The position numbers and the translations under genes were made by a program. From Trueperaceae bacterium (lineage in GTDB: Bacteria; Deinococcota; Deinococci; Deinococcales; Trueperaceae): a stretch of DNA of 56,741 nucleotides. Under the pieces are notes generated by a model. It saw only the letters and a program-made list of their open reading frames with translations, was not told the DNA's origin and ran no database searches. This document shows positions 27,458 to 32,025 of this stretch, in pieces; position 1 is the stretch's first letter; each line of letters begins with the position of its first letter. The stretch is from assembly GCA_013697735.1 (NCBI GenBank), contig JACCWH010000127.1, positions 1 to 56,741 of the forward strand. The letters run 5' to 3'.

Positions 27458-28981
27458 ATGCCTCGCGCCCTCATCAGCGTCAGCGACAAGACTGGCATCG
27501 TGCCGTTCGCGCGCGCCCTCGTAGCGCTCGGCTTCGAGCTCGTCTCCACCGGCGGAACGCGCCGAGCGCTCGAGGAGGCGGGCCTCACGGTGACGCCGGT
27601 CGACGCCGTCACCGGCGCCCCCGAGATCCTCGATGGTCGGGTGAAGACGCTCCATCCCTCGGTGCACGGTGGCATCCTCGCACGCGATACGCCGGACCAC
27701 GAACGCGAGCTCGCGCGGCACGAGATCGCGCGCTTCGACCTCGTCGCCGTCAACCTCTATCCGTTTCGTGAGACCGTCGCCTCCGGCGACGTCTCGCTCG
27801 ACGAGGCGATGGAGCAGGTCGACATCGGCGGACCGACCATGCTCCGAGCGGCCGCGAAGAACCACGGCGCGGTGGTGGTAATCGTCGAACCACGCGACTA
27901 CGACCCTGTGCTCGACGATCTCCGGGGTGCGGGCGTGAGCTCCGAGCGGCGCCGTGCGCTGGCGCGGGCGGCGTTCGCCCACACCGCCGCCTACGACGCC
28001 GCGATCGTGCGGTATCTCGACGCCGACGAAACGTTCCCCGAGACGCTCCACCTCACGCTCACCCGCGCCGAGGAGCTCCGCTACGGCGAGAACCCGCACC
28101 AGCGGGGAGCTCGCTATCGCGAGGAGGGGAGGAACCGGGGCTGGACCGACGAGGCGACGCAGCACGGCGGCCTCGGCCTCTCGTACCTCAACCTCTTCGA
28201 CGCCGAGGCTGCCTGGCGGCTCGCGCACGAGTTTCCCGGGTCGCCGTGCGCCGTGATCGTCAAGCACGCGAATCCGTGTGGCGTCGCGCTCGCGACGGAT
28301 CTCGGGAGTGCGTACGAGCGGGCGTTCGAGGCCGATCCCAAGTCCGCTTTCGGCGGCGTGGTCGCCCTCAATGGCGTCGTCGACGCCGCGCTCGCCGACG
28401 AGATCGTGTCGCGACCGAAGGCCGACGTGCTCGTCGCGCGGGGCTACACGCCCGAAGCGCTCGCGCGCTTCGCCTCCAAGCGGAAGAACATGCGTGTGCT
28501 GGAGGCCCCGCCACCCGGTGCCGGGGCACCCTCGTTGCGGCGCGTGGACGGCGGCTTCCTGGTGCAGGGTCCCGACGCCGTTGGCCGCGACCGAACCGCG
28601 TGGTCGGTCGTCAGCGAGGCGCAGCCGAGCGAGGCGCTCTGGCGCGATCTCGAGCTCGCCTGGGTCGTGGGCGCCTACACGCTCTCGAACGCCATCGTGC
28701 TGGTCGAGGGGGGGCGCGCGGTGGGTATCGGTGCGGGGCAGCAGAGCCGTGTCGACGCCGCCGACGTCGCGGCATCGAAAGCCGCCGGTCGCGCTGCGGG
28801 GGGCGCCTGCGCCTCGGACGCCTTCTACCCCTTCCGCGATGGGCTGGACGCCGCCGCCGCCGCCGGTGTCGCGGGCGTGATCCAACCGGGAGGATCGCTG
28901 CGCGACGCCGAGGTGATCGCGGCCGCCGACGAGCACGGGCTCGTCATGGTACTGACGGGCGAACGGCACTTCCGGCACTGA
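27458..28981 (+). CDS. purH: Bifunctional AICAR formyltransferase / IMP cyclohydrolase
   Basis: Last two steps of de novo IMP synthesis; 507 aa. The MGS-like cyclohydrolase domain (1-190) has [17 protein letters not shown] and YPFRETVA. The formyltransferase domain has LRYGENPHQ, the catalytic [20 protein letters not shown] and [11 protein letters not shown]. The usual VKSNAIV segment reads YTLSNAIV here, losing the Lys; I do not know its consequence. ATG 27458 follows the ppiD-like stop by 8 bp with GCCGGG before it. The intergenic space to nrdJ is 302 bp. Confidence 0.95.
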
Positions 28982-29067
28982 CCGGCACCGGACGCCGCGA
29001 CACACTCCGGGCTGGCGACGACGTCGTCCTCGGAGGGCACTACCCGTAGCGTTTCGGGGCGAGCTCA

Positions 29068-29083
29068 CCACCACATCTTGTAC
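29068..29083 (+). promoter_or_regulatory. NrdR box 1 (distal)
   Basis: CCACCACATCTTGTAC matches the NrdR box core C-W-A-n-A-T-n-T-W-G at all invariant positions except the first W (C). It lies 102 bp upstream of box 2. Between them, TTGCAC (29090) and an extended -10 TGCTACGCT (29112-29120) with a 19-bp spacer could be a promoter. Bases 28982-29067 contain nothing recognisable. Confidence 0.5.
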
Positions 29084-29169
29084 CTCCTCTTGCACTCCCC
29101 CGATGGGAGCGTGCTACGCTTCTCGTCATCGCTCGAGACGAAGAACGAGTGAATTCCTACACCGCACGT

Positions 29170-29216
29170 GGTCAACATCTTGTACATTCTCGACCTGGAC
29201 GTACAAGATCTCGTAC
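29170..29216 (+). promoter_or_regulatory. Tandem NrdR boxes 2 and 3 upstream of nrdJ
   Basis: Box 2 GGTCAACATCTTGTAC (29170-29185) fits the C-W-A-n-A-T-n-T-W-G core perfectly. Box 3 GTACAAGATCTCGTAC (29201-29216) is a palindrome with a single mismatched pair and misses one W. The spacer is 15 bp, a 31-bp start-to-start distance or three helical turns, which is the spacing known for paired NrdR sites. NrdR is the ATP/dATP-sensing repressor of ribonucleotide reductase genes. TTGTAC (29180) and TACAAG (29202), 16 bp apart, may be the promoter the boxes occlude. The nrdR gene is not in the window. Confidence 0.75.
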
Positions 29217-29283
29217 CAACCGCCAGAGAGCCTCGGGTAGCTCGACCACCCAGGGCTCGACGGTCCGAAAGGGGTCTCCCACA

Positions 29284-32025
29284 GTGGCCGACGTCGCTCC
29301 GCACACCGCCCGCCAGGACCTCGCTTCGTTCGACGATCACGCCGTCGCGATCGCGAAGCGCCAATACTTCCAACCGGGTGACGACGACCTCCTCGGCCTC
29401 TTCCGGCGCGTTGCGAACTGGGTCGCCGGCCCCGAGGACGTCGCGGTGCGGAGCCAGTACGCCCAGACGTACTTCGACCTCATGGTCTCGAAGCGCTTCT
29501 GTCCCGGCGGGCGCGTGCTCGCGGGCGCCGATACCAGCCACGGCAACGTCCTCAACTGCTTCGTACAGGACGGTCGCCCGGAGCCCGTGGCGAGCGATGC
29601 GTGGGTCCTCCACCTCGCGACGAAGCTCGCGGTGGTCACGAAGGTCGGTGGCGGCAACGGCCTCTGCCTCGACCCGATCGCGCCGAAGCGCCCCTACGAC
29701 GGCGCGGTGGGCAAGCTGTACCTGACCATCGTTCCGACGCATGCCGACTACGACAAGGTCCGCGACGGCACCTACCTCGACCTGGTGCACGACGCCTACG
29801 TGACGCGCGGCTACCACGCCTCGGCGTTCGTCGAGTACCCCGACGCGCCCATGAACGTGCGCGTGCGACAGGTGGGCGACTCGGTCGAATCGATCTGGAA
29901 GAGCGCCGCCGACGTCGTCACCACGCTGCTCCGTGGCGAAGACCTCGTGCTCGATCTGAGCGACCTGCGTGCCGAGGGTGCCCCCGTCAACGGCTCCGGC
30001 GGCACGTCGAGCGGGCCGTCGTCGTTCGCGGTCGAGGTCTTCGACAACTTCGCCCGCTGGGCGAACCTCGGGGGCGCGGCGTACGCCGGACCCGTCGCCA
30101 CGCTCCGCTACGTGTTCGCCAACACGCTCCGGGCGATACGACAAGGGGGCACGCGCCGCGGGGCTGGCATGGCGACCATGTCGATCACCCACCCCGACAT
30201 CCACGACTTCATCACCGCCAAGGACATCGCACGCGAGCAGACCGAGGGCGACATCAGCACCTTCAACATCTCCGTGCTGGTGAGCGACGCCTTCATGCGC
30301 TCACCGGAAGCGAAGCGGCAGGGGAGTGTGCTGCACGACATTGCCGACCATGCCTGGTCGACGGGTGAACCCGGACTGATCTACATCGACCGCATCAACG
30401 AATTCAATGCGATGCGCGAGTCGTTGGGGGAGATCAAGGCGACGAACCCGTGCGGTGAGATTCCCCTGTTCCCCGGCGAACCGTGCGACCTCGGCGCGAT
30501 CAACCTCGCGCAGTACGTCGCCACGAGCGACGTCGGGCTCGACGGCTTCGACACCGAGACCTTCCGGCGCGACGTCGCGACGTGCATTCGCTTCCTCGAC
30601 AACGTGCTCGACGTGAACCGGTTCGCGCTCGAGGACAACCGGGAGATGAGCCACTACCTCCGCCGGCTCGGACTCGGGATCATGGGCCTCGCTGACGCAC
30701 TCATCCGGATGGGCTATCGCTACGACAGCGCCGACGGACGCGCGGCGGTCTCCGCGATCATCACCGAGCTACGTGAGGCGGCCACCGACGCGAGTCGTGA
30801 CCTCGCCCGCGAGCGCGGTCCGTTTCCGGGCATCGGTGCCTCGAGCCTCGTCGAGGAGCGTAGGAACATCGCGCTGCTCACCGTTGCTCCCACCGGGACG
30901 ACGAGCATGTTGATGGGCGTGTCGAGTGGCGTCGAGCCGATATTCGCGCCCTTCATCTACCGCAAGATCGGTTCGAGCTACACCGCCATCATCGCGCCGC
31001 TCTTCAAGGAGTTGCTCGAGCGCCACGCTCCCCATCCCGACTTCGCCGACGGCGAAGGCTGGGACTGGGACGCCGTCGTCGAGCGCGTCCAGGAGCAGCA
31101 CGGCAGCGTGCAAGGTCTCGACTTCATCCCCGACGACGTGAAGGCCGTCCTGGTGTGCGCTCACGACATCGCGCCCGACGACCACGTGCGCATGCAGGGT
31201 GCGGTGCAGAGCGCCTTCGACGCCGGTGGTGAGATGGTGGCCAACTCGATCTCCAAGACGATCAACCTCCCGAATCACGCCACCGTCGGCGACGTCTACC
31301 GCGCCTACAGCCTCGCCTTCGAGAGCGGCTGCAAGGGAATCACGGTCTACCGCGACGGGTCGCGCCAGTTCCAGGTCCTCTCCACCAAGGTCGACAAGAA
31401 GGTCGACAAGATGGTCGGCAAGAAGGACGACAAGATGGCCGCCACGACCGAAGGGACGCCCGGGTCCGGACGGGGCATCGCCGCCCGCATCGCCTCTGCG
31501 CCGAGTGCCGTGAGCGTGACGGGCGCAACCGACCGCCGTCGCGCGGCGCGCGCACCGTTCGAGCGCCTCCCCTCCGAACCGCTCTTCGATCGGCCGATCC
31601 GCCTCGAGGGCTTCACCGACGCCGCTCGGCTGACGCTCCCCACGGGCGAGACGCGCGGCTTCTACGTCACGGTCAACAAGCAGGACGGGCTGCCGGTGGA
31701 GTGCTTCGTCACGAGCGGCAAGGCGGGCGACGAGGCGAACGCCGACTCCGAAGCGCTCGGCCGCGTGGTGTCCGTCGCCCTCCAGTACGGCGTGCCGGCG
31801 GAGGCGATCGTCAAGACGCTGCGCGGCATCAACGGTGGCATGTACGGCACCTATCAGAACCGGATGGTCGCGAGCCGCGCCGACCTCATCGCCGTCGCGC
31901 TCGAGACGGCAGGCGTCGAAAACGTGCTCAACCGCGGCAAGGCCTGCCCCGATTGCAGTGCGCCCCTGCGCTTCGAGGAGGGCTGCGTGAAGTGCGAGTC
32001 GTGCGGCTACAGCAAGTGCGGCTAG
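29284..32025 (+). CDS. nrdJ: Adenosylcobalamin-dependent (class II) ribonucleotide reductase
   Basis: Reduces ribonucleotides to deoxyribonucleotides using an AdoCbl-generated thiyl radical, independent of oxygen; 913 aa. First redox Cys C92 in NCFVQD, thiyl-radical motif NPCGEIPL with C390 and E392, and the later PTGTTS phosphate-binding motif. After the catalytic barrel come a Lys/Asp-rich linker of VDKK/DDKM repeats, a TSCPD domain and a C-terminal zinc ribbon (CPDC...CESCGYSKC). GTG 29284 with AAAGGGG nine bases upstream is chosen. An upstream in-frame start at 29149 would translate through the NrdR boxes and is unlikely. No intein is seen. No class I or III RNR is in the window. Confidence 0.95.
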   Translation: MADVAPHTARQDLASFDDHAVAIAKRQYFQPGDDDLLGLFRRVANWVAGPEDVAVRSQYAQTYFDLMVSKRFCPGGRVLAGADTSHGNVLNCFVQDGRPEPVASDAWVLHLATKLAVVTKVGGGNGLCLDPIAPKRPYDGAVGKLYLTIVPTHADYDKVRDGTYLDLVHDAYVTRGYHASAFVEYPDAPMNVRVRQVGDSVESIWKSAADVVTTLLRGEDLVLDLSDLRAEGAPVNGSGGTSSGPSSFAVEVFDNFARWANLGGAAYAGPVATLRYVFANTLRAIRQGGTRRGAGMATMSITHPDIHDFITAKDIAREQTEGDISTFNISVLVSDAFMRSPEAKRQGSVLHDIADHAWSTGEPGLIYIDRINEFNAMRESLGEIKATNPCGEIPLFPGEPCDLGAINLAQYVATSDVGLDGFDTETFRRDVATCIRFLDNVLDVNRFALEDNREMSHYLRRLGLGIMGLADALIRMGYRYDSADGRAAVSAIITELREAATDASRDLARERGPFPGIGASSLVEERRNIALLTVAPTGTTSMLMGVSSGVEPIFAPFIYRKIGSSYTAIIAPLFKELLERHAPHPDFADGEGWDWDAVVERVQEQHGSVQGLDFIPDDVKAVLVCAHDIAPDDHVRMQGAVQSAFDAGGEMVANSISKTINLPNHATVGDVYRAYSLAFESGCKGITVYRDGSRQFQVLSTKVDKKVDKMVGKKDDKMAATTEGTPGSGRGIAARIASAPSAVSVTGATDRRRAARAPFERLPSEPLFDRPIRLEGFTDAARLTLPTGETRGFYVTVNKQDGLPVECFVTSGKAGDEANADSEALGRVVSVALQYGVPAEAIVKTLRGINGGMYGTYQNRMVASRADLIAVALETAGVENVLNRGKACPDCSAPLRFEEGCVKCESCGYSKCG

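Follow-up and report, generated by a model that had tools for sequence, protein, structure and literature searches.

Two predicted NrdR operators around a putative nrdJ promoter in a Trueperaceae bacterium

NrdR is a near-universal repressor of bacterial ribonucleotide reductase (RNR) genes, but its binding has been measured in few species. Published NrdR operators consist of palindromic 16-bp boxes that are paired, lie an integer number of helical turns apart and have spacers of 15 to 16 bp (PMC12051234). In the window analyzed here, the whole 56,741-nucleotide stretch of a Trueperaceae contig, a phased pair of such boxes (P pair; boxes P1 and P2) precedes nrdJ and a further box lies upstream of it. 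What does a promoter with a complete pair do with a distant third box? The features that bear on this question are collected in Table 1.

Table 1. Features of the nrdJ locus and the nrdR gene. Positions are those of the window unless a contig is named.
Feature	Position	Strand	Remarks
purH, upstream of nrdJ	27458..28981	+	TIGR00355, 592.3 bits
Degenerate NrdR box, putative upstream half of D pair, GCACTACCCGTAGCGT	29037..29052	+	31 bp before distal box
Distal NrdR box, strong half of D pair, CCACCACATCTTGTAC	29068..29083	+	6/6 core positions
Weak candidate -35, TTGCAC	29090..29095	+	19 bp before -10; TTGCAC and 19-bp spacer also in G030
Extended -10 element, TGCTACGCT	29112..29120	+	TGnTAnnnT between D and P
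GTG...CAC element, GTGAATTCCTACAC	29149..29162	+	21-26 bp before first proximal box in 11/15 two-pair genomes
Proximal NrdR box P1, GGTCAACATCTTGTAC	29170..29185	+	6/6 core positions
Proximal NrdR box P2, GTACAAGATCTCGTAC	29201..29216	+	6/6 core positions
Shine-Dalgarno sequence AAAGGGG before GTG start	29268..29274	+	GAAAGGGG in g1 and g12; GAGAGAGG-like in g16
nrdJ, class II adenosylcobalamin-dependent RNR, 913 aa	29284..32025	+	GTG start, without intein
nrdR, single gene, on another contig than nrdJ	L001, G000:C212:6212-6721	-	Both NrdR domains

The gene behind the boxes is indeed a class II RNR, as an earlier note on this DNA had claimed. Its product matched TIGR02504 (NrdJ_Z) with 520.7 bits (cutoff, 399.95) and also PF02867 and the C-terminal TSCPD domain PF12637, the latter above its cutoff. 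A longer reading frame from an in-frame GTG at 29149 was rejected in favor of the start at 29284 because an in-frame stop codon occurs within the 50 codons before the latter start in 10 of the 15 genomes with two box pairs; with that start, the proximal boxes would fall inside nrdJ. The NrdJ query hit one place in the genome, neither a class I small subunit nor NrdD was found there, and NrdJ is the sole detectable RNR of this genome. A B12 riboswitch upstream of nrdJ was also rejected: at the Rfam gathering thresholds, neither it nor another known RNA was found in that region, and the Rfam matches in the window were three tRNAs. Just downstream of nrdJ and facing it lies a gene for a MazG-domain nucleotide pyrophosphohydrolase (PF03819; 32062-32400, minus strand). 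In relatives such as G005, G006, G008, G014, G026, G027, G028 and G035, the matches to nrdJ are interrupted near residues 291 and 391 within single open frames of about 1100 to 2500 aa, as expected for inteins.

The boxes were scored with the core pattern C.A.AT.T.G (six positions), an NrdR consensus that fits inside the published regular expression C.[AT].A[AT].[AT].G (PMC12051234). The two proximal boxes were found exactly where the earlier note had placed them, with a 15-bp spacer and a period of 31 bp, and the third box starts 102 bp before P1, again as described. In 20,000 dinucleotide shuffles of the gap between purH and nrdJ (28982-29283), three or more cores never arose and two or more arose 10 times; a core pair at 31 or 32 bp was absent from all 200 shuffles of the whole window. 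With one mismatch allowed, the 31-bp core pair occurred at a single place in the 3.52-Mb genome (reversed-pattern control, 0), and a second pair marking further NrdR targets was not found. Moreover, the exact 10-mer ACATCTTGTA has two copies in the 3.52 Mb, both in the nrdJ upstream region. The three boxes are real and not due to chance. The shuffles, the single 31-bp pair, the ACATCTTGTA copies and the RNR-specific location of the boxes in relatives all speak against sites of another regulator or a chance pattern, which we regard as extremely improbable.

That location was followed in a set of 61 genomes. The exact 31-bp core pair was present in 15 of them (reversed pattern, 2 of 61); matched by hand, it lay upstream of nrdJ in 10; in 3 others, the gene for a class I small subunit was not more than 3 kb away, and two exact pairs, in G002 and G052, were at neither location. 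At least one strict box within 350 bp before nrdJ was found in 28/35 members of the family, 3/4 of f2, 8/8 of f3, 7/8 of f4 and 3/3 of f5. G057, G058 and G060 were added for this count and are absent from the offset scoring, G011, G024 and G052 have no usable nrdJ upstream region, and the loci L031-L035 were left out of later counts. nrdR was detected in 56 of the 61 genomes. When the comparison was limited to genomes with a completeness of 90% or more, 37 of the 42 that encode NrdR had a strict box ahead of nrdJ, compared to 0 of the 3 that do not (Fisher P = 0.004; counts tallied by hand). Two of these three are informative; the third belongs to genus g8, in which strict boxes are mostly absent even where NrdR is present. 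A strict box upstream of nrdJ was missing from 4 of 23 NrdR-bearing family members, all of them g8 and at least 90% complete, and from one outgroup genome. G003 and G037 are nearly complete and have neither a detectable nrdR nor a strict box before nrdJ; a joint loss of nrdR and boxes is possible in these two.

The existence of an nrdR gene, predicted from the boxes, was borne out by a single copy on contig C212. Its product has a Zn ribbon (PF22811, 76.1 bits) followed by an ATP cone (PF03477, 50.2 bits), both over the cutoff, and the Zn ribbon contains two CxxC motifs, CPYC and CSAC. The IRRRR motif and R17 were present in all 56 NrdR proteins compared. Two frames next to nrdR resemble ribosomal proteins S9 and L13. 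Altogether, the boxes constitute a predicted NrdR operator, and control of nrdJ by NrdR is well supported at the sequence level. The proposed dATP-responsive repression stands as far as NrdR control fits the sequence; its signal is to be read as dATP together with ATP.

The distal box does not appear to be alone. Since E. coli NrdR bound one-box probes 530 to 1000 times worse (PMC12051234), a lone distal box is hard to explain, and 31 bp before it lies GCACTACCCGTAGCGT, a box that retains C4, A6, T11 and G13 and has CC in place of the central AT (4/6 core matches in the window genome). When core matches were scored by their offset from strong boxes, -31 came out on top as a single clear peak in 35 family regions, with a mean of 3.37 of 6 compared to 1.40 (standard deviation, 0.35) over all offsets. 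It was also the top offset in 20 outgroup regions, four of them from the N15-side family f2 (mean, 3.53). Conservation of the distal box had been suggested as a check, and its strict core was intact in 12/12 genomes of the genera g1, g12 and g16, which are all members of these genera in the 61-genome set (the g12 genomes G109 and G110 stand outside the count). The outer four bases of the partner were retained at -31 in 11/12, which are related two-pair genomes and not 12 independent events; at the other offsets from -90 to -1, these bases were found in at most 1/12, a value reached at -37 and -21. The 15-bp spacers inside the D pair have diverged across the 12 genomes and the boxes around them have been retained. 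The distal box of the earlier note is therefore probably no lone third site but the stronger member of another pair in 31-bp phase.

Taken alone, the putative partner is a weak match, and the case for it rests on conservation among related genomes. In S. coelicolor, changing the G-C pairs of a box lowers NrdR binding 50-fold or more (PMC9110341), and GCACTACCCGTAGCGT retains those pairs. It lacks the central AT, the step at which the S. coelicolor operator DNA is kinked (PMC9110341). This absence, together with the poor binding of single-box probes and of box 0 of Streptococcus nrdHEF and of E. coli nrdAB, would fit a site at which the proximal pair alone works and the distal box with its partner is a decaying older operator or too weakly bound. 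We consider this unlikely, given that the strong D box and the outer bases of its partner have been kept despite the diverged spacers and that decay is not confined to D: in genus g16, it is the first proximal box that is more degraded. The best reading is that of two tetramer-sized operators, D and P, that would lie on either side of an extended -10 promoter.

The candidate promoter was recognized by comparison between genomes and not by a standard sigma-70 promoter and terminator scan, which gave no site in 28950-29320. The pattern TGnTAnnnT was present on the coding strand between D and P in 15/15 two-pair genomes but in 0/15 reverse complements and 0/15 mirrored segments. Given the 19-bp spacing and the poor -35, the promoter call depends on this extended -10. 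Transcription is predicted to start at about 29127; counted from there, D spans roughly -90 to -44 and P roughly +43 to +89. In the window genome, the two pairs thus flank the predicted promoter and do not overlap it. From the predicted start to P1, the distance is 38 to 43 bp in g1 and g12, 67 to 77 bp in g16, 62 bp in g10 and 1 bp in g2. The GTG...CAC element, which was searched with a loose expression, is a further conserved feature and may be a protein site or an RNA hairpin; a GTGA-rich version ending in TCAC or CAC is clearest in genus g12 (GTGAGAGGAACATCAC-like).

The position of D might also suggest that, instead of adding to the repression of the promoter found, it curbs transcription coming from purH or controls a second promoter. 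Indeed, the purH C terminus lies just upstream of nrdJ in 29/35 family members (0/20 outgroup regions), the scan of 28950-29320 found no terminator-like site between the two genes, and promoter-like halves were recognized by eye in both pairs of genus g2. However, two pairs are also present in g2 and g10, where the searched stretch contains no purH, and we consider such a role of D quite improbable. Two separate operators at one promoter and the ability of NrdR to form higher oligomers could likewise be taken to favor the idea of the earlier note that the distant site might allow looping of the DNA to the proximal pair. This idea found no support: across 15 genomes, the centers of D and P are between 105 and 167 bp apart, and a helical phase at 10.4 to 10.6 bp was not detectable (Rayleigh P = 0.13 to 0.21; with n = 15, a weak phasing could escape). 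Because of this variation, looping is neither needed nor supported, and we hold it to be very improbable.

The repressor itself differs from the characterized ones in a residue that reads DNA. The NrdR of this genome carries N15 where the alignment places D15 of S. coelicolor and E. coli NrdR, and thus lacks the conserved base-contacting aspartate; D15 is described as a conserved residue but not as family defining, and contacts bases in the S. coelicolor structure 7P3F (PMC9110341). Within Deinococcota (loci L001, L100-L129 and L165-L189), position 15 was N in 33/34 Trueperaceae (S in the remaining one) and in 2/2 members of the sister family f2 but D in 20/20 NrdRs of families f3 to f5. D15 was also present in 12/12 NrdRs from Actinomycetota, Pseudomonadota, Bacillota and Halobacteria (12 of 50 records). 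In the NrdR tree, N15 and D15 are separated by one branch (88/88), and therefore any comparison of N15 with the boxes has n = 1. Among distinct nrdJ boxes, position 2 was T in 53/80 half-sites of the N15 families versus 6/38 (P = 4e-7). When exact 31-bp pairs were counted, those of class I among them, and their inner half-sites were taken, the difference shrank to 9/12 versus 19/42 (P = 0.10; 27 pairs, leaving out the two of unplaced location in G002 and G052 and repeated pairs). Degenerate partners were not more common in N15 families either, since the means at -31 were 3.37 in the family and 3.53 in a comparison set of other families that contains the four N15-side f2 regions.

In S. coelicolor, the D15A variant bound strongly to wild-type and mutant sites and even to a control promoter (PMC9110341). 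N15 is not A15, and the boxes studied here keep their core; with the change in the box flanks weakening once class I sites count, a transfer of that behavior would be speculative. N15 as the cause of the box changes is a speculative reading, since the flank difference shrinks with class I sites and the branch is a single one. That the NrdR of the Trueperaceae represents a natural variant in specificity, in which D15 would have changed to N15 once at the base of the Trueperaceae and their sister family and the operators along with it (a TAC...GTA flank, tolerated partner boxes without a center, and a promoter lying between two operators rather than beneath a single one), appears unlikely.

The literature already describes RNR genes under NrdR control, boxes in phased pairs and a promoter that carries two such pairs. 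In the open-licence full-text literature, we found no earlier account of NrdR in Trueperaceae, the Listeria case as the only one of distal NrdR boxes and, on Truepera and ribonucleotide reductase, nothing beyond a genome comparison. At Listeria monocytogenes nrdABI-trxL, NrdR binds each of two pairs, one distal and one proximal, with 21 and 4.7 nM, in an arrangement whose role the authors call unclear (PMC12051234). Its spacers are 15 and 16 bp compared to 15 bp in the window. However, the Listeria locus encodes a class I RNR, and the RNA polymerase site there is overlapped by the proximal pair; in the window, by contrast, the pairs flank the predicted promoter. Both Listeria pairs bind in the nanomolar range, whereas one D box of the window lacks its center and its binding is a prediction. 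Streptomyces coelicolor nrdRJ (7P3F; PMC9110341) likewise has a class II RNR gene preceded by boxes at a distance of three turns, and its NrdR is homologous to that of the window genome over residues 1 to 145, but its nrdR is inside the nrdJ operon and encodes D15, unlike the N15 gene on contig C212. E. coli nrdAB resembles the window in that the second box of its pair (boxes 1 and 2) has a noncanonical center and the pair lies downstream of the promoter (PMC12176259). Box 2 with its AG center demonstrates that an altered center can work, but E. coli nrdAB is a class I system with one working pair, and the center in the window is CC. In Pseudomonas aeruginosa, NrdR represses the class II gene nrdJ, and mutation of one box derepresses it (PMC4409342), but there is one pair, and the enzyme is one of three RNR classes, whereas NrdJ is the only one detected here. 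The flanking layout, the centerless putative partner box and N15 would set the present locus apart from the characterized cases.

We consider it likely that nrdJ, the only detectable RNR gene, has an NrdR-controlled promoter and that this promoter has two operators in 31-bp phase rather than a single one. The parts of this arrangement backed by sequence are the intact P pair, the D pair of one strong and one degenerate box, the extended -10 between them and the intact NrdR gene. If this NrdR behaves like the characterized ones, it would be loaded with dATP plus ATP at high dATP and form tetramers, each of which would span two boxes three helical turns apart and kink the DNA at each box. With D and P occupied, the promoter between them would be shut. 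The weaker D pair would be filled only at a higher repressor load, and repression would then be graded. When dATP falls, ATP-loaded NrdR would release the DNA and nrdJ would be transcribed.

NrdR boxes before an RNR gene, the basic finding, were to be expected. For the most part, the control site is probably ordinary; its peculiarities are a predicted second operator and an unusual substitution of the residue with which NrdR reads DNA. The D pair offers a clean test of whether a box without the AT kink step can hold half a tetramer, and the N15 family provides a natural parallel to the D15A mutant of S. coelicolor with its relaxed specificity. Since NrdJ is the only RNR detected, a two-operator switch, if true, would set the whole dNTP supply of this organism.
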